A stretch of 48,751 nucleotides of DNA from positions 1-48,751 of the forward strand of contig NZ_FOZS01000008.1 in assembly GCF_900116205.1 (NCBI RefSeq), given 5' to 3'. The notes under the pieces are model-generated. The model saw nothing but the letters and a program-made list of their open reading frames with translations. It was not told the origin of the DNA and ran no database searches. The translations under genes and the position numbers were made by a program. Shown here one piece after another: positions 10,937 through 45,428 of this stretch. The stretch's first letter is position 1; every line of letters starts with the position of its first letter. Source of the stretch: Halostagnicola kamekurae (GTDB lineage: Archaea; Halobacteriota; Halobacteria; Halobacteriales; Natrialbaceae).

Positions 10937-11196
10937 TGTCCGACGAGATGATGCGTTGGACGCCCGGCGTGAACTATGAGCCAGATAGCAGGACAGACGT
11001 CGAGGACTTCGTGGTCGACTACGGCTACGACGCGATCGACGCTGGCGTCCATCCAAAACAGGTTGCGGCTACGATTCGAGCGGTCGCGGACGAACTCGAA
11101 GAACACGCACACGAACGCGAGCAGACCCGTGACGAATCGACGCGGTCCGAACCCGCGGACTTCGGCGGCGAGTCAACTGGGGTACAGGAGCTATAA
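10936..11196 (+). CDS. Small helical protein; 3' half duplicated at 27.9 kb
   Basis: An 86-residue protein (MSDEMMRWTPGVNYEPDSRT). It begins one base before the upstream stop ends and shares its last base with the next start. A helical core includes AGVHPKQVAATIRAVADELE, and the tail is polar. From codon 37 onward the DNA is repeated, with small indels, at 27894-28041. Function unknown. Confidence 0.7.
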   Translation: MSDEMMRWTPGVNYEPDSRTDVEDFVVDYGYDAIDAGVHPKQVAATIRAVADELEEHAHEREQTRDESTRSEPADFGGESTGVQEL

Positions 11197-11543
11197 TGGC
11201 GGTCGCTCAGTCAAGCGGCCTCGAGGTCATCGACGAGCGGGACTCGGAAGCGCTCACCACGCCCATGACCGTGATGGACGATGCGGGCATGGTCCGGCAC
11301 ACTGACGGGATGTACGAGGTGACGACTGACTCGGGGAGCGAGTACATCGTCGATCTCGATGCGCCTACTGGTGCCCGGTGCCTCTGTCCAGATCACAAGT
11401 ACAGAGGCGTCGAATGCAAGCACGCGCGGCGTGTGAAGTTCGCCATCGGCGAGCGGGCGATTCCATCGTGGGTCGATCACGACGACGTCGACGACCAGCT
11501 GGGCGCGCATGTTGCCTCCGGAAACCCGGTGTGGTCTGAATGA
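11196..11543 (+). CDS. SWIM zinc-finger protein
   Basis: A 115-residue protein. The SWIM signature CxC-xn-CxH is present as RCLCPDHKYRGVECKHARRV around residues 62-81, preceded by the usual strand pair (DGMYEVTTDSGSEYIVDLD). SWIM domains bind DNA or proteins through one zinc. The first about 53 codons are duplicated at 28042-28201, and a second SWIM protein is encoded at 17604-18431. Its place inside a run of overlapping genes suggests a plasmid housekeeping role. Confidence 0.82.
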   Translation: MAVAQSSGLEVIDERDSEALTTPMTVMDDAGMVRHTDGMYEVTTDSGSEYIVDLDAPTGARCLCPDHKYRGVECKHARRVKFAIGERAIPSWVDHDDVDDQLGAHVASGNPVWSE

Positions 11544-15036: not shown

Positions 15037-15836
15037 GACCAACATTCGGACGTGAGTATATCGGGAACGAATTTCAGCGAATCGGAGACGGGCTATCTGA
15101 ACCGCTCACGGTCTACCTGATCGGTGGTGGCGCGATGTCGTTACGCGACCTCAAGGGGGCGACGAAAGATATCGACCTGGTCGTCCCGGATGGCGACGCG
15201 CACGGCCAGCTGTGGGCCGTCCTGATGGATCTCGGGTATGCGGAGGTCCAGTCGCTGGATCCAGATTACCGGGCGTTGGGCGCGACGAGCTGCGTCGAGA
15301 ACGACGATGGGTGTCGCCTCGACATCTTCAACCAGCAGGTCGCGAACAAACTTGTGCTCACCGACGGGGTGCAAGAGCGCAGCGAGCCGTTCCTCGACAC
15401 GGATCGACTGACGGTCCGGCTGGTCAGCAACGAAGATATCTTCCTGTTCAAGGCGATCGCAGGCCGCGACGACGACATCGAGGACATGGATATGCTCGTG
15501 CAGGCCGGCCTCGATTACGATGTCGTCCGGGATGAACTCGAAGCCCAGATCGACCGCCTGGGGGACGATCAGTTCGCCACGTTCGCGAACGAGGCCCTGG
15601 TCGAACTCGAGGAGCGGTACGGGGTGACCACGCCGATCGAAGCCCGCGTCCAGGAGCTCACGAATAGGTACTACCGGGGGCTCGAAGTCCTCCAGGCACT
15701 CGACGAGCCGATAACCGTCGACGAACTGGCCGCCGAACTGGAGCTGGATGCCGACGAGGTTCACGACCGGATCGCGTATCTCTCAACGTTCGACCGGGTC
15801 CGTCGGGATGGCGACACAGTCCGTCCCGTGGAGTAG
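15033..15836 (+). CDS. Nucleotidyltransferase, DUF6036/AbiEii-like
   Basis: A 267-residue protein. The nucleotidyltransferase signature is complete: VYLIGGGAMSLRDLKGATKD then IDLVVPDG (Gly-Gly plus D-x-D), with a third Asp in GCRLDIF. The C-terminal about 60 residues form a helix-turn-helix-like unit (EPITVDELAAELELDADEVH). AbiEii-type enzymes transfer nucleotides and act as toxins in abortive infection, but the substrate here is unknown. Coupled by a 4-bp overlap to the winged-helix regulator. Confidence 0.82.
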   Translation: MRPTFGREYIGNEFQRIGDGLSEPLTVYLIGGGAMSLRDLKGATKDIDLVVPDGDAHGQLWAVLMDLGYAEVQSLDPDYRALGATSCVENDDGCRLDIFNQQVANKLVLTDGVQERSEPFLDTDRLTVRLVSNEDIFLFKAIAGRDDDIEDMDMLVQAGLDYDVVRDELEAQIDRLGDDQFATFANEALVELEERYGVTTPIEARVQELTNRYYRGLEVLQALDEPITVDELAAELELDADEVHDRIAYLSTFDRVRRDGDTVRPVE

Positions 15837-15947
15837 GTTCCTCACAATATCGTCACTTAAATCGGCACCTGATGGCGGCTGTCGTCACAGATGATTCACG
15901 GGTTGCGTCAAGCAGGTTTTATCCAGCAAGCCCGAACGGCCGGTATC

Positions 15948-16715
15948 ATGCGGGAATTCGTCTTCACAGTCGAATACGAGAAGGGGGCTGACGGGGTGAT
16001 GGATCTCTTCATCGACAACCCGGATCTGTATGCCCGGTCGATGGAGATCAGTGCGACCAACGAGGCGGTGTGGGGTATTGAGAAGATCGTCGGCCCCGCT
16101 GCTGTCCTCGACCAGTTCGACGACGCACTGGAACGCGTCGCAGATTCTCCGGGCATAACCGGAATGTGTGGGGCACCCGTGACCGAATACGAATACACGA
16201 TCCTCTCGTCGAATGCGGAATCACGGAAGATTCACTGGCTTCGGCGGGAAGGTGATGGTTCACGGTCGATTCCCTTGGTCGCGGCGAAGCACATCGGCGA
16301 GGGGTTGATAATGCGCACGGAGCGACGTGGTGACCAATACCGGTGGCGGATGCTTATCGACGGGACAGTATCAGCGATTCACGAGGAGGTCCGAGCGAAT
16401 CTGCGAGAGGGGTTGTCACTTACTGTTGAACGACTTGGCACGCCGCCGTGCTTGCTCGAAGACGGTCGCGTCCAGCAAACGCTCACGCCCGAACAGAAGG
16501 CAGCACTCGAGGCTGCAATCGAACGTGGGTACTACGAAGAGCCACGGCAGCAATCGGTCGCGGAAATCGCTGAAGACGTCGGTGTGTCACGGTCGACGTT
16601 CCAGTACCGTCTCAACCGAGCGGAGGCGTGGCTGGCACAACAGTTCGCCGCCGATTCACTCGACGTCGACCTCGACGTGGATCTCGATCCCGAGGACATC
16701 GAGTTCATCCAGTAG
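15948..16715 (+). CDS. HTH_10 (bacterio-opsin-activator-like) regulator
   Basis: About 255 residues from ATG 15948 (MREFVFTVEYEKGADGVMDL). The C-terminal VAEIAEDVGVSRSTFQYRLN ... AEAWLAQQFA is the haloarchaeal HTH_10 module, and the N-terminal 150 residues are a sensor-like alpha/beta domain. Such proteins activate metabolic or stress genes. It lies directly upstream of a metallo-beta-lactamase-fold gene that it may control. The Met at 15891 is an alternative start. Confidence 0.82.
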   Translation: MREFVFTVEYEKGADGVMDLFIDNPDLYARSMEISATNEAVWGIEKIVGPAAVLDQFDDALERVADSPGITGMCGAPVTEYEYTILSSNAESRKIHWLRREGDGSRSIPLVAAKHIGEGLIMRTERRGDQYRWRMLIDGTVSAIHEEVRANLREGLSLTVERLGTPPCLLEDGRVQQTLTPEQKAALEAAIERGYYEEPRQQSVAEIAEDVGVSRSTFQYRLNRAEAWLAQQFAADSLDVDLDVDLDPEDIEFIQ

Positions 16716-16790
16716 AAAGCACGTCGAACTCCTCGACGGTTGGAATATGTCGAAGTAAATCCCACCCCGACGGCTCTCGTAGGCCCGGGT

Positions 16791-17549
16791 ATGGCAACGA
16801 CTGGTGCGAGTGTTCAGCTGATTCGAAACGCGACTGTCCTCCTGGACGTCGGTGACACGACGTTCCTCGTGGATCCGATGTTCACACCGCAGGGCGAGAA
16901 TCCGACGGTGACAGACAACCCGGCAGTTCCGGAGTTCCTCACCACGGCGAATCAGGACCGGAATCCGCTTGTTCCGCTGCCTGACGTTGACCTCACCTAC
17001 GACGCTGTGGTCGTTACGCACCGCCACCCCGACCACTGGGACGAGGCGGCCAGAGAGGAACTCGATGCCGACGTGCCGCTGTTCTGTCAGCCCCAGGGGG
17101 CCGACGCCTTCACTGACGAGGGCTTCACTGATGTTCGCCCCGTCGACGACGAAACCACCTTCGAGGGGGTCACTATCCACCGGACGCCGGGCCAGCACGG
17201 GCACGGCGAGCTCGCCGAGGGAATGGGTCCGGTTTCGGGCTTCGTTTTCGAGGGCGACGAGACAGTGTATGTCGCCGGGGACACGATCTGGTACGAGCCG
17301 GTCGAAGAGACACTTGACCAGTACGAACCCGATCTGGTGGTTCTCAACGGCGGCGAAGCGCAGTTCGATCAGGACGAGCCCATCACGATGGGGGTCGACG
17401 ACATCAACGCTGTCCGCGAGGCCACTGACGCCGAAATAGTGGTCGTCCATATGGAGGCAATCAACCATTGCTTGCTGTCGCGAGAGGAACTGCGGGCAGA
17501 GACAGAAGATGTACACGTCCCCGAGGACGGCGAGCGGTTCAGTCTATAA
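16791..17549 (+). CDS. Metallo-beta-lactamase-fold hydrolase
   Basis: About 252 residues from ATG 16791 (MATTGASVQLIRNATVLLDV). The metal motif HxHxDH is VVVTHRHPDHWD; further ligands are in PGQHGHGE and AGDTIWYEP, and the late His is HMEAINHC. This pattern is UlaG-like, a family acting on lactones, phosphodiesters or similar esters; no substrate can be named. Soluble and cytoplasmic. Preceded by the HTH_10 gene. Confidence 0.85.
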   Translation: MATTGASVQLIRNATVLLDVGDTTFLVDPMFTPQGENPTVTDNPAVPEFLTTANQDRNPLVPLPDVDLTYDAVVVTHRHPDHWDEAAREELDADVPLFCQPQGADAFTDEGFTDVRPVDDETTFEGVTIHRTPGQHGHGELAEGMGPVSGFVFEGDETVYVAGDTIWYEPVEETLDQYEPDLVVLNGGEAQFDQDEPITMGVDDINAVREATDAEIVVVHMEAINHCLLSREELRAETEDVHVPEDGERFSL

Positions 17550-18522: not shown

Positions 18523-19466
18523 CTGAGTGAGGACGGAGATTGGTCCTCGAGAACGTCGATGAGCTCCTCTGCCGTTCGACTAATCCGTCCGAGGCGCTCG
18601 CGAACGGCCTCGGGATCTTCCGACTCCCACGCAGCGAGGTAGAACGCCGACCCACTAGTGTCGAGCCCGCAGTACCGCCCGACGACATATGCGACGGCTT
18701 CGGCCTCGACTTCGCGTTTCGCCCGCTCGGTGTCGTCGTCGACGTCGAAGTGGAGCAGAGCGTGGGCGTATTCGTGAATTAGCGTCCGCGCGAGGTCGGC
18801 CTCGTTCTCCCGATCACACACCTCGACGAGCGGCTGAACGTCGACGAGGCTCAGCTGCTCGCAGATACCCTTCGCCTCGCCGTGGGTCCATTCCTCGGCT
18901 GGAACGATCCGCACCGTCACGCCGAGGTCGTCAGCGGCGGCAGTCAACTGCTCAACGAGGTCACCGGCGTCCCCGGTTGCTTCTGTGTCCAGGTCGGGAA
19001 GCGGCTCGCCCTCGGTCTGGGAGATGTCGAACACCGGCGCGGGCTTGAACCCGACCAGGCCCTCGGACCACTCCTCGGGCGATGTCTCATCGTAGTCACA
19101 GTCACTATCCTCGTGATAGCTCGGCGAATTCTCTCACTCCGGGCACTGCTTGGTGATGATCGGCGCCCAGATCCAGATGGCCGACTCACCCTCCTTGACG
19201 TGGCGGTCGAACTTCTCCTGCCACGTCCGGTAGCCCGCCACCCGGCTCGCCTCGGGACACTGCCGCTTGATGAGGAGCGTGTTCCGGTAGGAGTAGTCGT
19301 AGAAACGACTCTGGACGTCCAGCCACTCCTGGAACTCCGCGCTGGCTTGCGCGTCGTCGACGCCGGCGACGAGCTCGTCGATCCACTGTTCGATGGTACT
19401 GTTCATCTCGTCTGATCGCGTGTCGGTCTGGTCGAAGGAGACCGACGATTCTCTGGTCGTAGACAT
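18519..19466 (-). pseudogene. ArdC-like antirestriction protein interrupted by TGA
   Basis: The start ATG at 19466 (MSTTRESSVSFDQTDTRSDE) gives an N-terminal ssDNA-binding-like domain (EFQEWLDVQSRFYDYSYRNT). TGA at 19134-19136 stands where the intact paralogue (44490-45428) has Cys in CPEC. The same frame continues with ENSPSYHE to a metallopeptidase domain with HEYAHALLH and a helical end. Only one codon differs from an intact gene. ArdC proteins protect incoming DNA from restriction; the peptidase motif implies a zinc protease. Dead unless the stop is an error. Confidence 0.82.
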
Positions 19467-19936: not shown

Positions 19937-19960
19937 CGCCCTCTCTGGGGCGTGAAAAAC
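19937..19960 (-). promoter_or_regulatory. Hairpin leader, copy 3 (19554-19901 gene)
   Basis: CGCCC (19937-19941) pairs with GGGCG (19948-19952), and AAAAAC follows at 19955-19960 (GTTTTT on the transcribed strand). The stem ends 36 nt upstream of the ATG at 19901. Confidence 0.62.
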
Positions 19961-20122
19961 CAGCACGCGGATTTCTATACTAGTAATTGGTTTTCAAAGC
20001 TGTATTGGATATGGTACATGTAATCTGACGCCCTGAGGAATCCCGTCCCTTGCGCCTGCCTGTCTGGGGTGGCACACTCTTTCTCGGCAAGTGTTATGGG
20101 ACCAGACTAAGACAGAGAATTT

Positions 20123-21922
20123 ATGGCTGAATTATTGGTTTTCACGTTTCTCGCCTCTATCGTTGCCGTCTATTCTATACTTCCTCGACACCGCCAACTC
20201 CGTGTTCGATACAATCTATGGACGAAGCCCAGATTCGCGTATATCTTGATCGCCTTCCTGGTGATTATCGGATCGTATTGGCTCTCAATCTATTTGGAGA
20301 GTCTTGAGGCGGCCAGCGTACCGGTTAGCTATGGGGTTGGTTCTGTGGAGGTCACCCCGCTGCTGGTTGAATCTCTCCAATTAGTTGCCGTGCTAGGGAT
20401 TGTCGGATTGTTCTTGGGGGTCTTTCTGAAGTCATCTATCAGGGTGAAGAACGAAGAGAAAATAGTGTCTATTCTTCGTGATCTGAATAATCAGGGCGAT
20501 TATAGCACACTAGTCAATCTCATTCAGAACCATTATCGGCCTCTTGTTCACCACCCGGAGGAACCACAGAGGCAGCCCAGTTTAGCAGAGGTTTACGCGC
20601 GAGAACTGAGAGAGGAGGTGGAAGATGAGCCTGATTCACTGAGAGAGAGGGTAATCCGGTGGTACCGGGCTCAATACTATGTTCAGCTGGTTAATTATTG
20701 GTTGATAGATACTGCTCCGGAGGCGTCGTCCTACACTGAAACCCTGTTTCTTGATCCAGAATTCAGTGCGCAGTATCCGGTGATCGACCCCGATCTTGGA
20801 GTAAAATTGATTCGTGATGATTCTCTGGAGGGCTTTCAAAGACGGAACGCTGTTCATCGATATCTTCGCACGTTGGTAAAGACCGAGAACAGTCTCCTGT
20901 ATCGGGATCTGCAGAATAACACCAGCACAGACGGAATGTATCGATACAAAATCGAGGAAGATAATCGGCTCATTCACGCCTTGTTTTCGGATATGGATCG
21001 AGTTGAGGACTTAGATATATACAAGCCGGTCGGTGATGCCGTCCGGGATATAATTGTAGATCAGCGCAGGCAAGAATTCGACGAGTACAATGATCAAAGT
21101 CTAACTGATACGAGAATCTCAGACGACCATATTTTTCGAGATCCGGTGTTCATCGGCATCCAGTTTTTCGACGTGCTGGTGAAAGAGGCGTTCCATCAGA
21201 AGGTTTCGTGGCATGTGTGGCTCTCTTACTATGAGACGTTCACCCAAGAGATCTGCCGGAACTACGAAATAACGGAGTACAGTGACCCAGATGCTTCAGT
21301 GCCAAACGACTACTCTCGGCTCCTGAACGAGATGGTCGGGAATATGTGTGACTGGATGCGGATGATGCAGGCAGAGGTGGTCTCACGAACCAGCGATACC
21401 GAAGCTTGTGATGTGCCACTACACGCACCTGAAGAGGCAGCGACGTCCGCCGCCCGGACCTCCACAGATAAAGACAAGAGTTCAGTTTCTAGTGAAACCG
21501 CCAGTATCGAGGACGAAACGGGTGATACGGACGTATTTGAAAAGTTCCTCACAATTCGGAGCTCATACACTGGGCGTGATTCTGCCAGCATCCCCAAGAT
21601 GACCGGAATCATCTTGGTATCGTGCAACGTGGAGATACTGACCACCAGCGAAATCCCGGATCGGTTCAAACGAGACATTACGGAGAGAATCCTCCTGACC
21701 GGGGTCGAACTCCGAAACCATGGGGAGGGGTCGTTGCCGTGGGAATACAGTGAGCTGTTGCTCGCAAATATTGAAGAGCGGCTCACGGGTAGACGAGCGA
21801 ACCCACAGTATGCGGAGCAGTTACAAGATGTCTATGCGGACATCCGAGACGAGGTATTCCTCGAAGAGGATGTCGGCGTGGATTTCGTCGACAGGTTAGA
21901 CGAGCTGATTGGACATCCCTAA
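20123..21922 (+). CDS. 599-residue membrane protein of unknown function
   Basis: It begins MAELLVFTFLASIVAVYSIL. Helices are predicted at about 1-20, 38-58 (FAYILIAFLVIIGSYWLSIY) and 88-108 (LVAVLGIVGLFLGVFL). Residues 115-599 are a large soluble helical part rich in charged residues, with a Ser/Thr-rich linker at about 430-475 (AARTSTDKDKSSVSSETASI). No catalytic motif is recognised. It is AT-richer than the plasmid genes and lies at the left edge of the defence-type island. It could be a membrane effector or sensor, but this is not supported by any motif. Confidence 0.7.
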   Translation: MAELLVFTFLASIVAVYSILPRHRQLRVRYNLWTKPRFAYILIAFLVIIGSYWLSIYLESLEAASVPVSYGVGSVEVTPLLVESLQLVAVLGIVGLFLGVFLKSSIRVKNEEKIVSILRDLNNQGDYSTLVNLIQNHYRPLVHHPEEPQRQPSLAEVYARELREEVEDEPDSLRERVIRWYRAQYYVQLVNYWLIDTAPEASSYTETLFLDPEFSAQYPVIDPDLGVKLIRDDSLEGFQRRNAVHRYLRTLVKTENSLLYRDLQNNTSTDGMYRYKIEEDNRLIHALFSDMDRVEDLDIYKPVGDAVRDIIVDQRRQEFDEYNDQSLTDTRISDDHIFRDPVFIGIQFFDVLVKEAFHQKVSWHVWLSYYETFTQEICRNYEITEYSDPDASVPNDYSRLLNEMVGNMCDWMRMMQAEVVSRTSDTEACDVPLHAPEEAATSAARTSTDKDKSSVSSETASIEDETGDTDVFEKFLTIRSSYTGRDSASIPKMTGIILVSCNVEILTTSEIPDRFKRDITERILLTGVELRNHGEGSLPWEYSELLLANIEERLTGRRANPQYAEQLQDVYADIRDEVFLEEDVGVDFVDRLDELIGHP

Positions 21923-21973
21923 CCACATTGGAGGCCACTCTCCGATCGCATCTATCAGCGTCAAAACGTGAAT

Positions 21974-22324
21974 TCACGGTGGTGACAGGTAGACGCTCTG
22001 CTCGCCGGCGATTTCATACAGGTTGTACTGGTGACTGAAGTAGCACTCGTAGCTGCAGTATCCACAGATTGCGCCTGTATCGTATTCGGAGACGTATGGG
22101 CCGCGGCGAGTTCGCCAGACGTTCGCCCCGCACTCGGTACAGGCGGCGTCTCCAAGACCGGCAGGACTCGGCCCCTCGTACTCGACGCCGAAGCCGCCCG
22201 CGAACAGCTGAGGAACTACAGCAATTCCCGGTAGCGGTGATTCGCTAGGAGAATAGAATGCCCCTCGCTTCCGGTTTGGTGGTTTAGTCGAGTAGTCCGG
22301 GTTCGGAAAGCCGGTCCCGCACAT
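21974..22324 (-). CDS. Zinc-ribbon protein overlapping the TBP remnant
   Basis: The second half is well conserved in style: CTECGANVWRTRRGPYVSEY, then GAICGYCSYECYFSHQYNLY, two CxxC pairs plus a further CxxxC. The first 60 residues (from ATG 22324) look irregular and overlap the end of the TBP remnant in another frame, so the true start may lie within. It ends about 50 bp from the 599-residue membrane gene, convergent to it. Function unknown. Confidence 0.55.
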   Translation of the reverse strand: MCGTGFPNPDYSTKPPNRKRGAFYSPSESPLPGIAVVPQLFAGGFGVEYEGPSPAGLGDAACTECGANVWRTRRGPYVSEYDTGAICGYCSYECYFSHQYNLYEIAGEQSVYLSPP

Positions 22325-22409
22325 GGATGAGAGCTTGCTGTGTCTCGTCCGTTTCTGTCCCACCAGTAATGAAGAGCTTGCCACTGCCGAAGAGGATGAC
22401 GACGACGTC
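22284..22409 (-). pseudogene. C-terminal remnant of a TATA-binding protein
   Basis: About 40 residues: DVVVILFGSGKLFITGGTET then DETQQALIHVRDRLSEPGLLD. This matches the end of archaeal TBP, where (A/V)xLLFGSGKxVITG precedes a terminal helix and DLGL. The intact TBP at 46079-46639 ends ALLFGSGKAVITGAKTT ... LTDLGLFQ. Everything upstream of the remnant is unrelated, so a TBP gene was cut here, probably during island insertion. Confidence 0.75.
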
Positions 22410-22736
22410 CAGAAAATCACCACAGAAACCACCCTCGAAAATCATTACGTCACATATAGCTTCGAAAAACCCCAAGACCTCGGGCTAATTCAAGTGGAAA
22501 ACCCAGCGGAATGGTCGAACGCGTCATCGACGGCCAGAAACGGGTGTCCCAAGCACCCAAACGGGGGAATCACCAAGAAAGCAGAACAGTACCTCAAACA
22601 GACCGAACAGGAATCCCCGGACAACTACGGAAACTTGAGCCACACTCGTAGAGAGAGCCCACGCCTCGAAAACCAAGTTCAAGAACTGGAGCAGAAATTC
22701 GAGGTATTCCGGAACCAGATTCAGCAACGGCTCTGA
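22323..22736 (+). CDS. Doubtful coding frame with C-terminal coiled coil
   Basis: A 137-codon frame. The first 40 residues are antisense to the TBP remnant and unlikely to be native. The last 60 (TKKAEQYLKQTEQESPDNYG, then ENQVQELEQKFEVFRNQIQQ) look like a genuine charged helix or coiled coil. It may be the tail of a lost gene lying between the remnant and the STAND gene. Low support. Confidence 0.25.
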   Translation: MDESLLCLVRFCPTSNEELATAEEDDDDVQKITTETTLENHYVTYSFEKPQDLGLIQVENPAEWSNASSTARNGCPKHPNGGITKKAEQYLKQTEQESPDNYGNLSHTRRESPRLENQVQELEQKFEVFRNQIQQRL

Positions 22737-22748
22737 CTAGATTTGTGT

Positions 22749-25700
22749 TTAGTCCCAACTATGAAAGTCGGTCTCTACGGTCCCAGTGAATTCTCCTTCA
22801 TCGTTCAAATAGTACACTGCCCTGATCTGTGACTTACCCATCTGATTCCCGCCCATACCGGTCGAGATAACACGTTTTTCTCCCTGGACAGGCCAAACGA
22901 TCTCCAAACCCTCCGCCTCCAATTCATCTAGGATAGTATCGCTCGCACCAATCATCGACATAGAATTAATTCTATCATGAACTCCCTGTGCTTCAGAAAT
23001 ATCAGCTACACAAACAGGGTCGGAACCCGATTGAGTGAACTGCATGGTGCCTACGTTCCATTCGAGATCAAGTAAATCGGCGAGATAGGGGGATGGGGCA
23101 TACATTCCGTACTTATCATTTATCGAGCAGTCGTATTCTGCCTCCCAGAAAAGGTCGATTGCCGTATGCTCGATATCAACCGGACTTCCGATTATTATTG
23201 AGCTGTCTCCTTCCCATCGATCCTCAACTATGGGATGCCACGGATACTCGCCTCTGAAAACCTGCGTCAGAGTTGGAAGAGAACCCAGCGTACTTCTCAT
23301 CTCATCACTCTTCACCCACTCCTCTTTAATCCAATCAACCAACTCTTGTTTATCCTCCTGATCGACAATCACCGGATCAATTCGGCAGAACACGTCCCGC
23401 TCAATTTCCGAATCATTACCCTCCTCTGCTTTCCACTTGTACATTCCGTACAGCGGGACCCATCCTTCCCCATCGACAGAAATATCCAGCATCGAATCCA
23501 CCGGAGGGAACCCATCGTGATTTTGAATCCACTCTTCAATCGGCTCCTCCTCAATGCGGCAATTATACTCAACCACATCATCGAGAGATAGCTCAGCGTC
23601 AAGTTCGGGGTCCAATACTGAGGGATCGATATTTCTATCCCATTGAACCCAAGGCCCGTTGTATGGCTCTTCTCTGGATGAATCAGCGATTTCGCAATTG
23701 TCGATAACCCAGGCGATCAACTCGTGATAAGCAATCCACTGGTATTTTTTACTGAATTTCTCCGGCTTCCTCGTTCCTCTACCATGATTCGACCATCGAT
23801 TCAGGTAATGGTCAAACTCGCCAAAGAGATCTGGATCCCAACCAAGTTCGAATACACGCTTTGTAATCCAACGTAACGCCTCCTCACCCGAGATGTCATA
23901 CCCATGAACGTGGGAACTGTCGTGGTTAGTGTCCAGAACATATCGGGCAAAGTCACTGCGTCCATCTCCCTCGAACCCTGAACCAGCTAAGCCATACCAA
24001 AAATTGGCCTCGACCTCATAATCAGCATCTTCCAACCGCTCCGTGACCAAATCCTCTAACTCCTCAGAATCCGGTATATCGATACTGAATGAACTATTGT
24101 AGGGCGGCCTAACCCTTTCAATGTCGACCTCAAAATCCCTGTCCAGACTAACAGCAGCCTCAATAATTCCACGCGCATAATCCCGAGATAACACATTAGG
24201 TACTGGGTTTCCGTTTTCAAACTCTGATTCATAAACAAGCTCTGCAACTTCGGCCGCCGATTCTTGCTGCCTGTTCCTGAGAACCCCGCCGTAAGCTGCT
24301 GCGTAAACCCGCTCCAGAATATACGGATCATTCACCTCTTGGAATCGTTCAATCAGATCAATGTACACCCGCAGGTCAGACCCTACCACATTGACCAGTG
24401 ACTTGGTTGCTCGATCCCGGACATATCGATTCGGACAAGAGAAAAACCAAGATAAAGAGATCGACATCAGTCTCTTCAATTCCTCTGATTCTACTGACTC
24501 ATGCTCCAAAGAGAACCCCCAATTGATGAGCCGAAAGACTTCGGAGGTCTCCTCATCAAACTCTTCATGAAGAAACTTCGACCAGTTGTTATCGCGTCCA
24601 GCAATTGGCTGATCCCACAGCACTTCATGAAGGTACTCCGCATTCAGTGGATGCTCAGTGCTTGTCGCCAAAGTAAGAAGAACTCGCCATAACTCATTTA
24701 CCTCATCAAGAAGTTGGATCTCACTCCACAGATAATCGTGAACCTCCTCCCTTAATTCGCCCTCTGGAGTAGTTAGCGAATCTGGGTCCCGCCAACCCAA
24801 GCTCTTGATCACAGGCTTCAGAATCTCACTCAATTCAACTAAGTCAAAAAGCTCTACATCATGCTGCTCAGGCAGATGAACCGCAAACGCCTGAATCAGG
24901 CCAGTGTACAAATCTGGGTTGTCGAATAACTCCTGCAATTCATCATTCTCGGAGAAATCACGTTCAAGATCTTCATCTACGTATAAATCGAGGTACTGCT
25001 GAGCAAGTTTATGGTCGGCAAATTTGTCATAAGAAAACCTCACAGATTCCCCGTTATCCTCGTTGAATGAAGCTACTTCAGAAATCACTCCTTCGCTCAA
25101 CAGATGCCGATAGAGACTCTCAGAGTAGGATCGGCCAGGTAGCAGATCATCAACAATCTCTTTGGCATCTTGCTTCGGCAACCGCTTTGTTCCATTACCA
25201 CGCTCAGCCATCTCCCGGGCCAAGTCATCAACTGCCTGCTGAACCTTGTTCACACCCGGATCGTAGTCCAACTCTCGCCAGAGTCGTTCATGCACACCAT
25301 CAATATATCCCTCGAAAATCTCAGTCAACCCTTCCGAACCGTGTGAAACCCGACTCTTTCCTTTTCTTTCCAGATTTTCACAGAACAACTTCAGAAACAG
25401 CGGTACCTGAAACTCGCGCTTAAGAACGGGAATCGAAGAGTGCTCAATACCATGAGCATCAAAGAAGGTGCGGACCGCCTCATACTCGACTTTACTAAAT
25501 CCGCCATGCCAAGCTTCTACCAACTGGTCTTCGCCTATGGCGTCCGGCAAGACCAAATCCTCATAACCAGACCTGCAACTCACACAAATCCCAACATACG
25601 GATACTCCTGTAATTTCCGTAATACGCCGGGGAGGCGCTTAGGCCAAATTCTCGGGTTCGGGCTCTCATTAAGTGCGTCAATCAAAATCAGAGAACGAAC

Positions 25701-26792
25701 ACCGCAAGATTCACCAAGTGAATTGAGAGCTCCCAAGAAATCGTCTGTCGTACAATTCAACCCGAACCGGTCAATAATCTGCGTCCAAATATCCTGGTCC
25801 GCGAAATTCTCACCAAGAAGGAAGACCGTAGGATAGCCTTCCTCAACACGAGACCGGGCCACGTTACAAAGCGTATGAGTCTTCCCAATGCCAGCGTCTC
25901 CAAGCAGTTTCAACCCAGAAGCCTCAGCTACCCGTAGCTCCCGGCTTTCCACGAAATTTTGGAGATTATATATCTCAGTTCGTACCTGCCGGAAGTGATA
26001 TAGAATATGATTTCCAGGATCTTCCATCGACGCTTCTTCGTCTTTCTGCCTAAGACCGGGCTCTAAATCTTGGATACTCTCCTCAGCCTGGTCAAGAGCC
26101 TGTTGAAGGTCATCAAATGGAATCCTCGCAGACACCTCGTCTATACTCTCAAGGACTTCCGGAATCTTGTCTACGGCCTCACGCAAATCCTGGAAAGCAT
26201 CTTTATCAACATCCTTCAGAATTGAATTGTACCGCTCAGTAAACAGGCTGGATGCCTCTTCATCAAGGTCATCCAACCGGCTTTGAACACTTGCATCAAA
26301 TTCATCCGTCCGTCCCAAAGGTTCGAAAATGCCGGAATTACCCGTATCAACGTGCAGCTCAGGATTATACCGGTCTTTAGCGTTCGAAATAGTGACCTCT
26401 ACTTCCGTCTCAAATTTAGAATCCGTTAACTGGAGCTCAGTCAGAAGCTGATCAGAGAGCTCCGTCGGAGAGGTAGACATCGCCTCCTGCTCTTTCTTCC
26501 ACCGTTCAAGCTCCTCAATAGGATAGTCTTCCGGGTTCTTGTCGATATGGGTATGATGAGTTGGACATAGAAGAATGAGATTAGAATATTCATCAATCTC
26601 CTCATCGCTTAGACTAGGGTCGTATCGCGGCCCTCCCTCACTTTGAGCACGGATATGGCAGATTTCACCGACCACTGTCTCCGTCTCAATATCCACGACC
26701 TCATTCTCACAGTCAGGATACCCACATTGATTCCCTGACGCTGCCCAGAGCTTCTTTAATGTAGACTGCTTGTAACTCACTCTGTCGTGCAT
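22749..26792 (-). CDS. HNH nuclease-STAND NTPase, Avs-like defence protein
   Basis: A 1347-residue protein in three parts. Residues 20-100 are an HNH nuclease: CGYPDC, VGEICHIRA, NLILLCPTHHTHID. After a helical, coiled-coil-like linker (165-250) comes a NACHT/STAND-type NTPase with P-loop GDAGIGKT (298-305) and Walker B LILIDALNES (368-377). Residues about 600-1347 are mainly helical repeats with a beta-rich end. STAND proteins with N-terminal nucleases sense phage proteins through the C-terminal repeats, oligomerise and degrade DNA (Avs/bNACHT families). The sensor is not recognisable. It stands alone and is AT-rich, so acquired. Confidence 0.88.
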   Translation of the reverse strand: MHDRVSYKQSTLKKLWAASGNQCGYPDCENEVVDIETETVVGEICHIRAQSEGGPRYDPSLSDEEIDEYSNLILLCPTHHTHIDKNPEDYPIEELERWKKEQEAMSTSPTELSDQLLTELQLTDSKFETEVEVTISNAKDRYNPELHVDTGNSGIFEPLGRTDEFDASVQSRLDDLDEEASSLFTERYNSILKDVDKDAFQDLREAVDKIPEVLESIDEVSARIPFDDLQQALDQAEESIQDLEPGLRQKDEEASMEDPGNHILYHFRQVRTEIYNLQNFVESRELRVAEASGLKLLGDAGIGKTHTLCNVARSRVEEGYPTVFLLGENFADQDIWTQIIDRFGLNCTTDDFLGALNSLGESCGVRSLILIDALNESPNPRIWPKRLPGVLRKLQEYPYVGICVSCRSGYEDLVLPDAIGEDQLVEAWHGGFSKVEYEAVRTFFDAHGIEHSSIPVLKREFQVPLFLKLFCENLERKGKSRVSHGSEGLTEIFEGYIDGVHERLWRELDYDPGVNKVQQAVDDLAREMAERGNGTKRLPKQDAKEIVDDLLPGRSYSESLYRHLLSEGVISEVASFNEDNGESVRFSYDKFADHKLAQQYLDLYVDEDLERDFSENDELQELFDNPDLYTGLIQAFAVHLPEQHDVELFDLVELSEILKPVIKSLGWRDPDSLTTPEGELREEVHDYLWSEIQLLDEVNELWRVLLTLATSTEHPLNAEYLHEVLWDQPIAGRDNNWSKFLHEEFDEETSEVFRLINWGFSLEHESVESEELKRLMSISLSWFFSCPNRYVRDRATKSLVNVVGSDLRVYIDLIERFQEVNDPYILERVYAAAYGGVLRNRQQESAAEVAELVYESEFENGNPVPNVLSRDYARGIIEAAVSLDRDFEVDIERVRPPYNSSFSIDIPDSEELEDLVTERLEDADYEVEANFWYGLAGSGFEGDGRSDFARYVLDTNHDSSHVHGYDISGEEALRWITKRVFELGWDPDLFGEFDHYLNRWSNHGRGTRKPEKFSKKYQWIAYHELIAWVIDNCEIADSSREEPYNGPWVQWDRNIDPSVLDPELDAELSLDDVVEYNCRIEEEPIEEWIQNHDGFPPVDSMLDISVDGEGWVPLYGMYKWKAEEGNDSEIERDVFCRIDPVIVDQEDKQELVDWIKEEWVKSDEMRSTLGSLPTLTQVFRGEYPWHPIVEDRWEGDSSIIIGSPVDIEHTAIDLFWEAEYDCSINDKYGMYAPSPYLADLLDLEWNVGTMQFTQSGSDPVCVADISEAQGVHDRINSMSMIGASDTILDELEAEGLEIVWPVQGEKRVISTGMGGNQMGKSQIRAVYYLNDEGEFTGTVETDFHSWD

Positions 26793-26981
26793 TTGGACTC
26801 TACTAATAAAAAATTACTACCGACAGGCTTCCAACCGGGGTAGGCGGGAAGAGAAAAGAGCAGAACAAGCCGGCCAATCTACTTTTTCCCTGAATAAATT
26901 CTTTGACGAACTGGCAGAAGAGATTGCAGAGTTAATTTGGGAAAAGTAGTTCATACAGGGACAGGCTGGGCTGCCGCAGAA

Positions 26982-27425
26982 TCATACGTCTGTCTGGTAC
27001 GGTTCGTCCTTGGCCTCCTGTACGTCTTCGTCCTGTTCGATTTCTGAACCTGTTCGGTCCTTGTTTCGAGATGCGATGTCTTTCAAGGAGTCTCTTTGTT
27101 CGTCGAACCCGTCACGGAGCTTGGACAGGCCGTTGCTCAATCCGCGTGCAAACCGCTTGCCTTTGGACGTAATGCTGAAGCGGTGTGGCTCTTCGTCCTC
27201 GTCAACCTCTGCCAGATCTAAGTCCTCGTAGGCCTGCATTCGGCTGGAGAATCCAGGGTCGAGAGGGCCGTGCTCTTCTCTCCTGAACGCCCAGTCCTCA
27301 GAGCTTGATTCGGAGTTCCGGTACTGGTAGAGAGACTTGTGAAACTTCAGCCGTCCCTCAATTTCCCCATCGAAGTCGGCCAGCATCATCAATCGGGGAT
27401 GGAATACCCCGTCTTCATCGGTCAT
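26982..27425 (-). CDS. Small partner protein, YwgA/DUF4065-like in style
   Basis: A 147-residue protein. RLMMLADFDGEIEGRLKFHK, then REEHGPLDPGFSSRMQAYED, then HRFSITSKGKRFA follow the order seen in YwgA-type and Panacea-type proteins: helix, mid-protein GP turn, winged-helix-like end. It overlaps the ATPase fragment by 4 bp, so the two were one operon. It may have been the antitoxin or regulator of that ATPase. Family assignment is tentative. Confidence 0.6.
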   Translation of the reverse strand: MTDEDGVFHPRLMMLADFDGEIEGRLKFHKSLYQYRNSESSSEDWAFRREEHGPLDPGFSSRMQAYEDLDLAEVDEDEEPHRFSITSKGKRFARGLSNGLSKLRDGFDEQRDSLKDIASRNKDRTGSEIEQDEDVQEAKDEPYQTDV

Positions 27426-27961
27426 AGGTAATCACCTAAAGTCATTTGAAGCGGCGAACGCTGCAGGACTTCTACCTTGTTGAACTCTGAATCCAAGTCC
27501 TGATTAGATGTTGTGACAATCAACTGCTGGTCCAGGCCAGTGATGTAGTCTATTGCAGCTTCCCGGTTTTCTTCTTCCTGAAGGTTCGAAAGTGGTTCGT
27601 CCAGCACGATCGTTTCCCACTGGGTAACATCGTTTTCGACAGCAAACCGGCTTAGTGTACAGACGAAGGAGATGTTCAGTAGTTGTAGTTCGGATCCGCT
27701 GAGATTGCCGCCTCGATCGTATTCTCGGAGACTATTCCTGCCTGGGAACTGCACCCGTCCTTCCTCATTGACGCTGATTTCTAGGTCTAGGTTAGAGTTC
27801 ATCTCGTTATACGCTTCTTCCCACGCATCACTGAACTCCAGAATACCGGCATCAAGGCTTTCTTCAGTCAACTCCTCAACCCGCTCTGACGCAGCGTCCA
27901 TCCGAAACAGGTTGCGGCCGCGCTTCGAGCGGCCGCGGACGAATTCGAAGAACACGCACAC
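27422..27961 (-). pseudogene. Truncated SMC/RecN-like ATPase, C-terminal half only
   Basis: Residues about 24-179 contain an ABC-type head: signature-like GGNLSGSELQLLN, Walker B TIVLDEPLSNLQEEENREAA, then a D-loop and QLIVTTSNQD. The P-loop half is missing. The first about 23 residues are antisense to the duplicated 11-kb DNA, so the gene was cut at about 27894 by that rearrangement. The 4-bp overlap with 26982-27425 shows the original operon. Probably a defence or repair ATPase before truncation. Confidence 0.75.
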
Positions 27962-28201
27962 GAACAGACTCGTGACGAACCGACGCGCTCCGAACCCGCG
28001 GACTTCGGCGGCGGCGAGTCAACCGGGGTGCTGGAGCTATAATGGCGGTCGCTCAGTCAACCGGCCTCGAGGTCATCGACGAGCGGGACTCGGAAGCGCT
28101 CACCACGCCCATGACCGTGATGGACGATGCGGGCATGGTCTGGGACGCTGACGGGATGTACGAGGTGACGACTGACTCGGGGAGCGAGTACATCGTCGAT
28201 C
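27894..28201 (+). pseudogene. Partial duplicate of the 11.05-11.36 kb genes
   Basis: Similar to 11045-11356 over its whole length, with a 6-bp loss, a 3-bp gain and scattered substitutions. It carries the end of the 10936-type gene (with its stop next to ATG 28042) and about 53 codons of the SWIM gene (MAVAQSTGLEVIDERDSEAL), which loses similarity at about 28201, before its zinc motif. It separates two truncated genes and is probably the recombination seam. Confidence 0.8.
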
Positions 28202-28604
28202 GCGACGACGTCGTCGGTAAGGGTCGCCATCGCGGCGTCGATCTTCTCGCCAGTGAGATGCCAGCACGCCGCTGCATCGTCGCACTCCAGTTGTGAGACC
28301 ACCTGATTCCGGAACGCGATGTAGTGGTCACGGGCGAACTGCTCATCGTCGTAGTAGTCGAGAAGGAGCGCGCACGCAAGTTGGGCGGGCCCGCTACCAC
28401 TGTACCCCCACTCGAACCCGCTTGGACTGTGGTTGACGATGTCCAGACTGCGCTCGAGGGGAGTCGCCGATGCTCCGAGAGGTTCAGCACGACGGCTTGG
28501 CCGTCGACGCGGAAGCCGACGTACTCGACTGCGTCTCGGTGAGACTGACCGGGCGATGCGACTGGAACCGATTCCGAACTTGCTACAGGTACATTCCTGT
28601 TCAT
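28202..28604 (-). pseudogene. DUF6166-like protein, frameshifted and without native stop
   Basis: It starts MNRNVPVASSESVPVASPGQ and reads VEYVGFRVDGQAVVLNLSEH. A one-base loss in a C run near 28462 then shifts to LDIVNHSPSGFEWGYSGSGP and AQLACALLLDYYDDEQFARD, which is the hallmark of DUF6166. The end (GEKIDAAMATLTDDV) runs into the duplicated segment, so its stop is lost. It retains a hairpin leader upstream. Function of the family unknown. Confidence 0.75.
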
Positions 28605-28637
28605 TCGTTGCTCGCGGGCGGTTCGGTGACCCCCGCA

Positions 28638-28660
28638 CCCCTCTCAGGGGTTCCACAAAC
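28638..28660 (-). promoter_or_regulatory. Hairpin leader, copy 4 (DUF6166-like gene)
   Basis: CCCC-TCTCA-GGGG at 28638-28650 and ACAAAC at 28655-28660, 34 nt upstream of ATG 28604. The preceding GCA matches copies 2, 8 and 9. Confidence 0.6.
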
Positions 28661-28722
28661 AGGACGGCGTAGCGTTCGGCAACGTATTTGGCAGTTGCAA
28701 CGTACTGTCCACATAATTGAGG

Positions 28723-28893
28723 ATGGCTGTACTGGACGATCTCTTGGGGTTCGAGTTTGAGGACGTGATGGAGGACGTGTTCCGCAACCTCGGCTACCAG
28801 AACTATCCGTTTCGAGGGAAACACGTCATAAAGAAGCAACTTCACCGAGCAAATAGCGCCGCAACACAGCTAAAACAGCAATTATCAATGTAG
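28723..28893 (+). pseudogene. N-terminal remnant of an Mrr-type restriction endonuclease
   Basis: A 56-codon frame from ATG 28723. MAVLDDLLGFEFEDVMEDVF followed by RNLGYQN is the usual opening of archaeal restriction endonucleases of the Mrr_cat class, in which a conserved acidic helix precedes the nuclease core. The sequence then departs (PFRGKHVIKKQLHRANSAAT) and stops at 28891-28893. The catalytic D...ExK core is gone. Confidence 0.55.
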
Positions 28894-28911: not shown

Positions 28912-30417
28912 ATGACCGATGTTGATATCGATGAAGTAAAGCCACACATTCGTGAGGCCGCACAGGAATTTATTGAAAGCGTAGCCGAGGATGTCGTATC
29001 AGAGGGGTATCGTATTCCTGAGAAGGAAATATTGTTGAGCAACGAATCGACGCCTGATGTACACCAGATCTCTGTTCCCAGAGAACTGATTACATTGTAT
29101 TCGAACCGCCAAGACGAATTCTTCAGGGACGTCGCGGAATGGCTAATTGACTCTGGAAATGCATTTCCGAAGGATGATTCTATTGACGATGAGGAGATCC
29201 CCACCACGGTCCTCGGAGATCCTGCTGATCTACCCTCAGAACGGGAGTCACGAGTTCTTCACCATGAGAATGTTGTTTTCAACTTTGCCGGAGATGTGTT
29301 GAACTACGTTGGTGATGTCGAATTTGATGAAAAGGCATTCAATGTAGCATTCGAGAACGAATTTCGACCCAACTACGAAACTGGTCTACGCAGTTACGAG
29401 ATCATCATTCCGCTAATTAACTTTACTGGGCCGAGGGGATTTGATTCGGATGAAAATATCCCACTGAACTCTGATATCGAGATTCACCACCGAGGAACAT
29501 ATCACCGGGTAGATTCAGTATCTCTCTCTACGCTAAACGAGGACACTGCAAATGCACTGAGAACATTTGAATATAACTACCGTCATCGGAATCCCTCCGA
29601 TTTGATTCATTCTGGTCAATGGGTTATCCACGCAGAAGTAAGTTCATCAACCGATAATACTGCTATCCCACATGAGATGATGGACGCACCAGGGGAACAA
29701 CTGGGAAAACGGATTGTTACGGCTCTCCGACTTTTCGGGCCAAAAAAAGGGTCTGTCGGATTCGATCGAGCGTTTGAGGTTTCGTCCGGGTGGCAAACGT
29801 ATCGCCTTGGTATTCCCGAGGTTCTTGGTCTTGATGAGGGTGAACGAGAACCATCACTTTCGCGGGAAAGTTACTCTCTAACAGAAGACGATCAAGAGGA
29901 CTTTCAAAATTTGTGGTCCCAGCTATGTAGTGACATCCGGCTGGACCCCGAGTACGAACTCTCAACCTCACTTCGGCGTTTCAATGAAATGTACGTGAAG
30001 CCATACCCAGGTGATAGATTGCTTGACTGTATGATTGCGTGTGAGGGGCTACTTCTTCGAGGGCCGCACCCGGGAACCAAGAGATCTCGAATGAGCCTGA
30101 GAGCAAGTCTCTTACTCGATGAGTTTGCAGGAATTGATAGACAAGAGGCGAGAGAGCGCATTAAAACGGCGTATGAACATCGTGGCAAGCTGGTTCATGA
30201 GGACGAATACCTTACTGATATCTTGAACCCCGGTGTTGACCGAGACTCTCAGTCGTTTGTACATCCCGAAGAATATCTCACCCAGCTCCGGGAACTTCTC
30301 GCTAATGTTATCTTAGCTTATCTAAGAGCCACATCCAATGACTACTCTGTATCCGAGTTGAATCAAGAGTTGGATAACGCACTACGAGATGCTTCCTTCA
30401 CCCTAGGCGAATTATAA
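28912..30417 (+). CDS. HEPN-like (Apea type) protein
   Basis: A 501-residue protein (MTDVDIDEVKPHIREAAQEF). The N-terminal about 330 residues are alpha/beta of unknown fold. The C-terminal about 150 are helical and contain the HEPN RNase motif R-x4-H as HRGKLVHED near residue 425, preceded by LLDCMIACEGLLL and RASLLLDEFAG as in Apea-like HEPN domains. HEPN proteins usually cut RNA in antiphage or toxin systems. It lies 18 bp after the Mrr remnant and is AT-rich. Defence function is inferred. Confidence 0.75.
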   Translation: MTDVDIDEVKPHIREAAQEFIESVAEDVVSEGYRIPEKEILLSNESTPDVHQISVPRELITLYSNRQDEFFRDVAEWLIDSGNAFPKDDSIDDEEIPTTVLGDPADLPSERESRVLHHENVVFNFAGDVLNYVGDVEFDEKAFNVAFENEFRPNYETGLRSYEIIIPLINFTGPRGFDSDENIPLNSDIEIHHRGTYHRVDSVSLSTLNEDTANALRTFEYNYRHRNPSDLIHSGQWVIHAEVSSSTDNTAIPHEMMDAPGEQLGKRIVTALRLFGPKKGSVGFDRAFEVSSGWQTYRLGIPEVLGLDEGEREPSLSRESYSLTEDDQEDFQNLWSQLCSDIRLDPEYELSTSLRRFNEMYVKPYPGDRLLDCMIACEGLLLRGPHPGTKRSRMSLRASLLLDEFAGIDRQEARERIKTAYEHRGKLVHEDEYLTDILNPGVDRDSQSFVHPEEYLTQLRELLANVILAYLRATSNDYSVSELNQELDNALRDASFTLGEL

Positions 30418-38299: not shown

Positions 38300-39718
38300 C
38301 TACATATAATGGTAGTAATGGATGTCCAGACTGGTGTTTTGAGCTTCGGCTTCAGCCAGAATGTTCCCAACGGCATCTGAGATTCCGATTGTAACCGGAA
38401 GCTTCGTGCAGAAATCCGAAGTGTTCCAGTCCAGTTTCGTGAACGCCAGCATTTCTCGGCACAGCTTCTGTGGCGATGAATCACTGACCTCCGGATCCGG
38501 CTTGACCACGATCGGCTCCGGGATGTTCGATGCTGGATACGTCGACAACGCCGGGATGTACCCCTTCGTGTACAGGTAGTGCTCCTCGTTGTTCGGTGCG
38601 GAGACCATTGTGCCTCGAAGCGCCGGATAAATCCCGGAACTCAAGGCACGGACTGGGTGCCGCTCTCGGACCGTGACGAAGTCCATCAACTCGATGTTCC
38701 CAGCACCTTTGATGAAGCCCCCTCGCTCCTCTTCCCAGAACTCCGACCGCTTGTGAAGCACCAGCCGTCGCGGCTCAGTCTTCTTGTGGCTACGGTAGTG
38801 CCTGAGAATCTTCTTGACCAGTTGCTCGGCGTCGTCTTCCGCGAGATGGTTGTTCCCCGGACCGTGTTTCTCTCCTTCGACGGGGTCACCTCGAAGGATG
38901 AAGTTCTCCCCCGTCTCCAGGAAGACTTGGGCCATAGCTGTCCGTGTCCGGGATTGGTCTCCGCCTCGCTCTTTGTAGAAGGAGATCCCGGCGAAGCATG
39001 TTCCGTCCTCCAGCTCAGTTAGTTTCCAGGGATGGCCGCGTTGCGCCTTGTACAGTGTTCCGACCGCGATGTTCCAGGCGATCTCGGATTTGTCCTGGAC
39101 GTCCTCACCGCGGAGGGTCTTCGGCTGCATCAGCTGGGTCGGCAACCCGACTTCCATCCCCAGCAACTTGATTCGGTTATGGAAGTCGCTGGTCTCTGAC
39201 TGCATCCGGGCATGGTCCTGGTGGGATGGAGTGCATGCGTCCCACATCGCTTCGGGAATCGCGATGAACACGACGTCAGGCGGCGTCTCCTTAGCGTACA
39301 GGACTTCGAGGTTGATCTTGATGATCTCGACCGCTTCTTCCAACCGGTCTTTCCGGCTGCGGATCTGGTTCAAGTCCCGGATCTCGCCTCGAGTAATCGT
39401 CTGCCGCCACCGCTTCTGCGTGTTGAACGTAAAGTTCAGCGACGATCGCTCGCCGAGGCCAGGGAACGGTGGTTTCCACCGCTTCGACTTGTCTTCGTCG
39501 GCGGTGATCGCCAGCTCCATGTCCTTGAACAGTTTCTCGATTGCGCCGAGAGACCGGCCAGATCCGATGTATCCGATGTTGATGACTTGGTGTTCGGATC
39601 TGCCGGACGGTGTTCTCGGGCCGTACTCCATTAGCCCGACTCGGGGGTCGATGGCTTCCTCGCCGTTGGCGAACATCAAGCCTGGTTCGTCGAGGACTTC
39701 GGCTGTGAACCCGTTCAT
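38300..39718 (-). CDS. Short prokaryotic Argonaute (MID-PIWI)
   Basis: About 472 residues from ATG 39718 (MNGFTAEVLDEPGLMFANGE), overlapping the upstream gene by 4 bp. The MID-PIWI arrangement is seen in GLMEYGPRTP, then VVFIAIPEAMWDA and TQLMQPKTLRG, then GTCFAGISFYKERGGDQSRT, RLVLHKRSEFWEEER and LPVTIGISDAVGNILAEAEA. Short Argonautes are guide-dependent sensors lacking slicer residues; the associated nuclease-APAZ protein is the effector. Length fits the short clade (400-520). Confidence 0.85.
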   Translation of the reverse strand: MNGFTAEVLDEPGLMFANGEEAIDPRVGLMEYGPRTPSGRSEHQVINIGYIGSGRSLGAIEKLFKDMELAITADEDKSKRWKPPFPGLGERSSLNFTFNTQKRWRQTITRGEIRDLNQIRSRKDRLEEAVEIIKINLEVLYAKETPPDVVFIAIPEAMWDACTPSHQDHARMQSETSDFHNRIKLLGMEVGLPTQLMQPKTLRGEDVQDKSEIAWNIAVGTLYKAQRGHPWKLTELEDGTCFAGISFYKERGGDQSRTRTAMAQVFLETGENFILRGDPVEGEKHGPGNNHLAEDDAEQLVKKILRHYRSHKKTEPRRLVLHKRSEFWEEERGGFIKGAGNIELMDFVTVRERHPVRALSSGIYPALRGTMVSAPNNEEHYLYTKGYIPALSTYPASNIPEPIVVKPDPEVSDSSPQKLCREMLAFTKLDWNTSDFCTKLPVTIGISDAVGNILAEAEAQNTSLDIHYYHYM

Positions 39719-44497: not shown

Positions 44498-45428
44498 CCG
44501 CACCCACCTCGTCGACGGCGTCGATGATTTCCCCCGCTGTCGAACTAATCCGCTCGAGGCGGTCGAGAATCGCTTCTGGCTCGTCGCCTTCCCACGCCGC
44601 AAGGTAAAACGCCGATCCACTGGTATCCAGCCCGAAGTACCGCCCGACGATGTAGCCCACTGCTTCCGCCTCGAGTTCGCGTTTCGAGCGCTCAATCTCA
44701 CTATCGACGTCACCGTGTAAGAGTGCGTGAGCGTACTCGTGAACGAGTGTGACAGCGAAAGCTGCGCTGTTCTCACGATTTTGCACTTCGACGAGTGGCT
44801 GTTTTGTAGGAGATCGGTACTGACATACGCCCTTTGCGTCGCCATGTGTCCACGCCGGCTTGGAGATGACTTCGACATCCACGTCAAGTGCTTTCGATCC
44901 CTCGAGAAGTGCTGGCACCAGTTCATCAGCATCGCCAGTTGCGTCGGTCTCGAGTTCCGGAAGCGGCTCGCCTTCGGTCTGAGAAATGTCGAATACTGGT
45001 GCAGGCCGAAAGCCCACCAGGCCTTTCGACCACGCTTCGGATGGCGTCTCATCGTACTCACACTCACTCCGTTCGTGGTACGACGGCGAGTTCTCACACT
45101 CGGGACACTGCTTGGCGATGATCGGCGCCCAGATCCAGATCGCTGTTTCGCCCTCTTTCACGTACCGGTCGAACTCACTTTGCCACGTTCGGTAGCCCGC
45201 GACTCGAGTCGCTTTTGGACACTGGCGAGTGATGAGGAGTGTATTGCGATAAGAGTAATCATGGAAGTGGCTCTGGACGTCGAGCCACTCCTGGAACTGA
45301 TCGCTCGAGACTACCTCGTCGACCTGCTCGACAAGGTCTTCCGCCCAGGTTTCCATCGTGCTATGCATCTCGTCTCGTCTGGTATCCGACTCATCGAAGG
45401 ATACCACTGAGCTGTCGCTCGAAGTCAT
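44490..45428 (-). CDS. ArdC-like antirestriction metallopeptidase
   Basis: About 312 residues from ATG 45428 (MTSSDSSVVSFDESDTRRDE). The N-terminal ssDNA-binding-like domain contains EFDRYVKEGETAIWIWAPII and a zinc knuckle CPECENSPSYHE; the C-terminal domain has HEYAHALLH with a later Glu (AEAVGYIVGRYFGLDTSGSA). ArdC proteins protect incoming plasmid DNA from restriction, probably by proteolysis, soon after transfer. It is the intact paralogue of 18519-19466 and carries leader copy 12. Confidence 0.85.
   Translation of the reverse strand: MTSSDSSVVSFDESDTRRDEMHSTMETWAEDLVEQVDEVVSSDQFQEWLDVQSHFHDYSYRNTLLITRQCPKATRVAGYRTWQSEFDRYVKEGETAIWIWAPIIAKQCPECENSPSYHERSECEYDETPSEAWSKGLVGFRPAPVFDISQTEGEPLPELETDATGDADELVPALLEGSKALDVDVEVISKPAWTHGDAKGVCQYRSPTKQPLVEVQNRENSAAFAVTLVHEYAHALLHGDVDSEIERSKRELEAEAVGYIVGRYFGLDTSGSAFYLAAWEGDEPEAILDRLERISSTAGEIIDAVDEVGADE

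Follow-up and report, generated by a model that had tools for sequence, protein, structure and literature searches.

A divergent haloarchaeal Avs2-family protein with an HNH nuclease in place of the usual effector and a sensor end resembling that of terminase-bound Avs3

Avs sensors have been characterized in bacteria, and Avs proteins oligomerize as a tetramer. Avs1-3 recognize the large terminase (TerL) and Avs4 the portal (PMC12724215; see also PMC12931631), and ATP-dependent oligomerization activates the N-terminal effector (PMC12724215; PMC12931631). The gene described here lies in a window of 48,751 bp that is an entire contig (NZ_FOZS01000008.1) of the haloarchaeon Halostagnicola kamekurae, whose genome comprises 4.1 Mb in 16 contigs; it is an ATG-start open reading frame on the minus strand (22749..26792) that encodes 1347 residues, the plus-strand reading being ruled out by stops throughout. 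Its product runs from an HNH nuclease through a linker, a STAND NTPase and helical repeats to a C-terminal α/β domain, and is probably an antiviral sensor of the Avs2 family with an exchanged effector (HNH), which TerL would trigger and which would cut DNA. The original prediction, made from the DNA letters and the open reading frames, had the frame and length exactly, leaving the strand unstated, and took the protein for a lone, Avs-like sensor on an archaeal plasmid; a single-gene HNH-STAND protein of the Avs type on plasmid-like DNA is indeed what is seen, but 'Avs-like' proves too loose, as the protein falls within the Avs2 sequence family from about residue 120 on.

This membership is seen in the PADLOC Avs2 models, whose matches span residues 94-958 (E = 0) and 116-1340 (E = 1e-217), and in a profile of five relatives, which aligns the solved Avs2 chain 9o4e (an entry containing four chains) over chain residues 164-1480 with E 4e-250. 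Like the Avs2 proteins of Rhodothermus marinus, Salmonella and 9o4e, with which it aligns from residue ~120, it combines in a single gene a linker, a STAND core, helical repeats and an α/β end; unlike them it has an HNH domain where they have a PD-(D/E)xK-like effector, and its haloarchaeal branch scores below the NCBIfam cut-off for Avs2 (see below). No partner is conserved across the relatives examined, as expected of a single-gene system. The helical linker (residues 121-290, 25923..26432, minus strand, as are all parts of the protein; modeled helices at 153-254) aligns in all Avs2 relatives and in 9o4e; it is a standard Avs2 region and not the unusual element it had been thought to be. The P-loop and Walker B motifs are present as first read, the former as G298-DAGIGK-T305 (25878..25901), the latter within LILIDALNE (residues 368-376, 25665..25691), and across 71 Avs2 proteins G298, G301, G303 and K304 of the P-loop and D372, A373 and N375 of Walker B are invariant. 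Of 391 genomes of the class, about 10 contain an Avs2-type gene, be it full-length, partial or broken.

What is unusual is the effector swap, which had gone unrecognized. Residues 1 to ~115 (26448..26792) are, by sequence comparison, a Cap5-like HNH nuclease in place of the standard PD-(D/E)xK-like effector. The HNH motifs quoted originally are present as C23-G-Y-P-D-C28, whose cysteines are of the Zn type, and C76-P-T-H79-H80; Pfam HNH_2 scores 25.8 bits (cut-off 21), and the solved HNH endonuclease 9om4 is matched with E 3e-20, followed by three chains of HNH-SAVED proteins, with H46, N71, C76 and H79 common to all four solved chains shown. No PADLOC Avs model matches residues 1-93, the Avs2 matches beginning at residue 94 or later. 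No SAVED domain is found: matches of the SAVED-HNH models are confined to residues 4-150, those of the solved chains to 8-146. The likeness to Cap5 (HNH-SAVED) of the CBASS defense systems thus lies in the nuclease type: Cap5 senses a cyclic dinucleotide via SAVED, whereas here the STAND core and the Avs2 repeats would act as the sensor. In Cap5-type HNH nucleases a dimer-to-tetramer transition switches on degradation of double-stranded DNA (PMC12804361), a mode of activation that would fit a STAND protein that oligomerizes.

A survey of 84,980 species genomes returned at least 80 Avs2 loci. Among the 80 matches listed, about 59 group with the restriction endonuclease-like (REase-like) effector of the Haloplanus type, some of them with short N-termini that may reflect profile drift; judged by eye, about 5 look trypsin-like and 3 membrane-anchored, and the others are unassigned or cut off. 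The common PD-(D/E)xK-like effector is thus usual for Avs2 but not defining, there being several effectors in the family. Among these matches the HNH head was found elsewhere only in Natrialba taiwanensis, which is to be read as 'not found' rather than 'absent'; inspection by eye puts three more archaeal relatives with the REase-like type. Of 264 matching plasmid records, not one spans 80% of the HNH domain plus linker (residues 1-330), and viral contigs of IMG/VR held no DNA matching the patterns for a closely related homologue. Avs2 itself is a known system; the HNH head on it appears to be new within the collections and PADLOC models searched, a scope that leaves aside the effector lists of the original Avs papers.

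The direction of the exchange can be read from the relatives. A tree of 83 Avs2 cores places the two HNH-headed proteins, from the window and from N. taiwanensis, with support of 1.0 beside those of Haloferax massiliensis and Halobacteriales YIM A00013, and the next branch is Halobacterium DL1 (support 0.97); all these neighbors are REase-headed, and the HNH pair, being nested inside the REase-type haloarchaeal Avs2 proteins, is thus the one whose effector was swapped. The proteins of Haloplanus sp. HW8-1, Haloferax massiliensis and YIM A00013 are 59-60% identical to the window protein from residue 121 (51-71% by region for Haloplanus), but have an REase-like effector; in residues 1-115, where the alignment is forced, identity to the Haloplanus protein is 24%. 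The nearest HNH domain found is that of a haloarchaeal protein, with 55% identity across residues 7-125, and an ELS...LL-EL-like tail reaching residue ~119 recurs in some of the haloarchaeal HNH relatives. Given this nesting, the jump in identity at residue 121 and the haloarchaeal HNH relatives, the REase module gave way to a local HNH module, with the junction at about residues 115-121. Synonymous divergence (dS) between the two HNH copies is 0.08 and 0.04 in residues 1-290 against 0.17-0.29 downstream (Fisher p ~4e-6), a difference suggesting that residues 1-290 recombined recently. A separate haloarchaeal Avs2-like subfamily of ~1235 residues, seen in four genomes, is effectorless and begins at the linker; in the one of these genomes looked at, no upstream effector gene was evident.

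The copy of the fusion in N. taiwanensis, a member of the same family, is full-length, open and 95% identical, and the ratio of nonsynonymous to synonymous rates (dN/dS) between the two is 0.13 for the whole gene and, from six differences only, 0.05 for the HNH part, which indicates a functional gene under purifying selection; the HNH-STAND gene is thus not a product of chance. It is accordingly very hard to credit that an HNH gene became joined to an avs2 remnant by decay or accident, leaving a sensor that does not work. Decay does occur around these genes: a fragmented avs2 copy is found in another genome, the ATPase gene next to the fusion in the window is a stub, and on a plasmid of Halobacterium sp. 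DL1 an REase-type avs2 (with no annotated gene) has lost its end beside an ISH8 transposase and is apparently inactivated. Against it, however, stand the intact frame in a second genus and a dN/dS that is lowest precisely in the HNH part.

The fold of the remainder was examined with AlphaFold2, residues 148-1347 being modeled from 71 Avs2 sequences (pLDDT 83.6, pTM 0.83). Foldseek's best matches to this model include NLRC4, NOD2, NAIP5 and Avs4, and those of VIA include Avs3, Avs4 (Z 12.2 for the NTPase part) and the NLRP3 NACHT domain; the region of residues 291-610 (24963..25922), with NTPase, helical and winged-helix parts, is thus predicted to be an NLR-like STAND core, as had been proposed. 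The sensor follows with helical repeats in residues 611-1103 (23484..24962), which include its most conserved motif, KKYQWI (1015-1020). The 'about 750 residues of helical repeats' of the original prediction are too many: the repeats end at ~1045, and residues ~1104-1347 (22752..23483) form a compact α/β domain in the model. A separate model of residues 1088-1347 (65 sequences; pLDDT 85.5, pTM 0.86) gives, for the last ~245 residues, a single significant match in the PDB, which is the C-terminal part (residues 1855-2082) of Avs3 in its complex with the PhiV-1 terminase (E 3e-4 in Foldseek; in VIA, 189 residues at 3.5 Å with Z 12.8); every other chain reaches a Z of at most 4.0. The comparison with Avs proteins that had been suggested for the sensor end thus yields Avs3, portal-bound Avs4 being absent among the end-domain matches listed by Foldseek and VIA. 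Terminase-bound Avs3 (8dgc) therefore resembles the protein in both STAND core and end domain, and portal-bound Avs4 (8dgf) in the STAND core; sequence identity is ~11%. A PglZ identity for the end domain was considered and rejected, Pfam giving only sub-threshold matches (PglZ, with E 0.024, among them) and Foldseek and VIA no PglZ among their rows. Of the two outcomes that had been named as contrary to an Avs-like sensor, a C-terminal part matching a non-defense family and an NTPase core lacking STAND character, neither came true.

As the end domain matches terminase-bound Avs3, and Avs1-3 recognize TerL, the candidate trigger with the best support, by structural model and by analogy, is TerL from tailed viruses of haloarchaea. 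The archaeal target, originally left open, is in this respect less so. A protein with the same switch but another haloviral trigger (portal, capsid or a Ksap1-like protein), its sensor having diverged from that of bacterial Avs2, is unlikely, if the least easily set aside of the alternatives: depending on the region, the sensor shares only 25-38% identity with a bacterial Avs2, and a Klebsiella Avs2 binds Ksap1 too, but terminase-bound Avs3 is the one significant match of the end domain, portal-bound Avs4 being absent among the matches listed, and archaeal and bacterial proteins agree fully or almost fully at KKYQWI and many other columns.

Several points weigh against a TerL-triggered, DNA-cutting Avs2. 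A Klebsiella Avs2 also binds Ksap1, another phage protein, and responds to it (PMC12724215), so that TerL is perhaps not the sole trigger. The match to the Avs3 end comes from a predicted model, and it is a likeness of fold rather than a terminase contact seen in 8dgc. HNH domains may act on other targets, such as RNA, or may only nick. Finally, the protein scores 936.9 bits with the NCBIfam Avs2 model NF041813, under its equivalog naming cut-off of 1000. Four other haloarchaeal relatives (REase, HNH or effectorless) are also below it (890.8, 838, 494.7 and 922.5 bits), and the bacterial Avs2 proteins of Rhodothermus and Salmonella pass it; the model begins downstream of the effector. This cut-off is a threshold for naming functional equivalents and does not define the family; we thus place the protein, on its sequence, in a divergent haloarchaeal branch of the Avs2 (AVAST type 2) family, and infer functional equivalence.

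By analogy with its relatives, a TerL-triggered Avs2 would work as follows. The resting protein would be inactive; on infection by a tailed halovirus expressing TerL, the helical repeats and the α/β domain at the C-terminal end would bind TerL, upon which the STAND NTPase would switch with ATP and the protein oligomerize. The oligomer would bring the N-terminal HNH domains together, allowing them to cleave both viral and host double-stranded DNA, and this cutting would halt the infection via dormancy or death of the cell, as in abortive infection. A terminase-bearing provirus in the host genome, which would have been a clue to self-avoidance, was sought with one family only (phrog_2) and gave no match, a weak negative.

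With a sensor end of the terminase type, a haloarchaeal Avs2 would offer a direct test of whether one receptor senses a fold common to bacterial and archaeal tailed viruses, and the natural pair formed by the HNH head here and the REase head in Haloplanus and Haloferax, at 60% identity, is a ready-made effector-swap experiment in STAND proteins. We lean towards the view that recognition of the packaging motor by Avs2 crosses the divide between bacteria and archaea, that haloarchaea exchange the killing head as a module, and that the captured local HNH, belonging to a class that is activated by cyclic nucleotides elsewhere, is activated here by a viral protein.

The gene travels in a mobile cassette of 5.25 kb (22644..27894), which aligns with DNA of N. 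taiwanensis DSM 12281 across 5257 columns at 94.3% identity, the flanks being unrelated; the Natrialba copy thus shows the cassette moving between genera. Besides avs2 (47.8% G+C against 56-58% in the surrounding backbone) it carries a 147-residue open reading frame (26982..27425, minus strand), the partner of an ATPase gene and as far as known not needed by Avs2, and the C-terminal stub of that ATPase, which is Lamassu LmuB/Rad50-like and broken at the cassette edge (27422 to about 27894-27961, minus strand). The ATPase is intact in N. taiwanensis (568 residues, 15433-17157 of the locus, minus strand; PADLOC LmuB E 4e-26), where it has a Walker A motif and a Cys-pair zinc hook and lies beside a ~148-residue partner and a membrane protein in a frame of 221 residues. 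That the HNH head depends on these partner genes is very unlikely. The three genes do travel together in the cassette, but the ATPase is truncated here with avs2 intact, the ATPase end and the 147-residue partner are found without avs2 in another genome, and relatives of avs2 occur without both. The pair is therefore read as a separate neighbor, and the partners as obligatory components of Avs2 were rejected.

The contig carries a ParA-like gene and a backbone common to dozens of haloarchaeal plasmids, and is thus likely of plasmid origin; its ends do not overlap. The backbone stops at 22187, after a DUF6610-family region (21967..22187), and resumes at 28193 with a DUF6166 gene (28193..28803), the content in between varying among the haloarchaeal plasmids read. 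The variable cargo stretch as a whole spans 19960-28193, between conserved ArdC-like/DUF6610 and DUF6166 genes, and in these plasmids holds a metal ATP-binding-cassette transporter, toxin-antitoxin, HNH and transposase genes. A direct repeat (11045-11359 and 27894-28205, 80-96% identical in pieces) has its second copy beginning exactly at the cassette edge and may be where a rearrangement cut the ATPase short. The ArdC-like gene is present in two diverged copies (18544-19254 and 44509-45216, 72-76%). A second defense system on the same contig is an Argonaute pair at 38300-41103 (minus strand), matching pAgo_I (E 3e-144) and Aga_REase_Archaea (E 7e-164). At 20123-21922 (plus strand) lies a gene of low G+C for a 599-residue protein that appears to have membrane helices at its N-terminus and has no Pfam match, PDC-M07A being a weak candidate in PADLOC (E 0.002); another haloarchaeal genome has part of this stretch at 96% identity. 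At 28912-30417 (plus strand), beside the cargo slot, a gene with 47% G+C encodes a 501-residue protein of unknown family.

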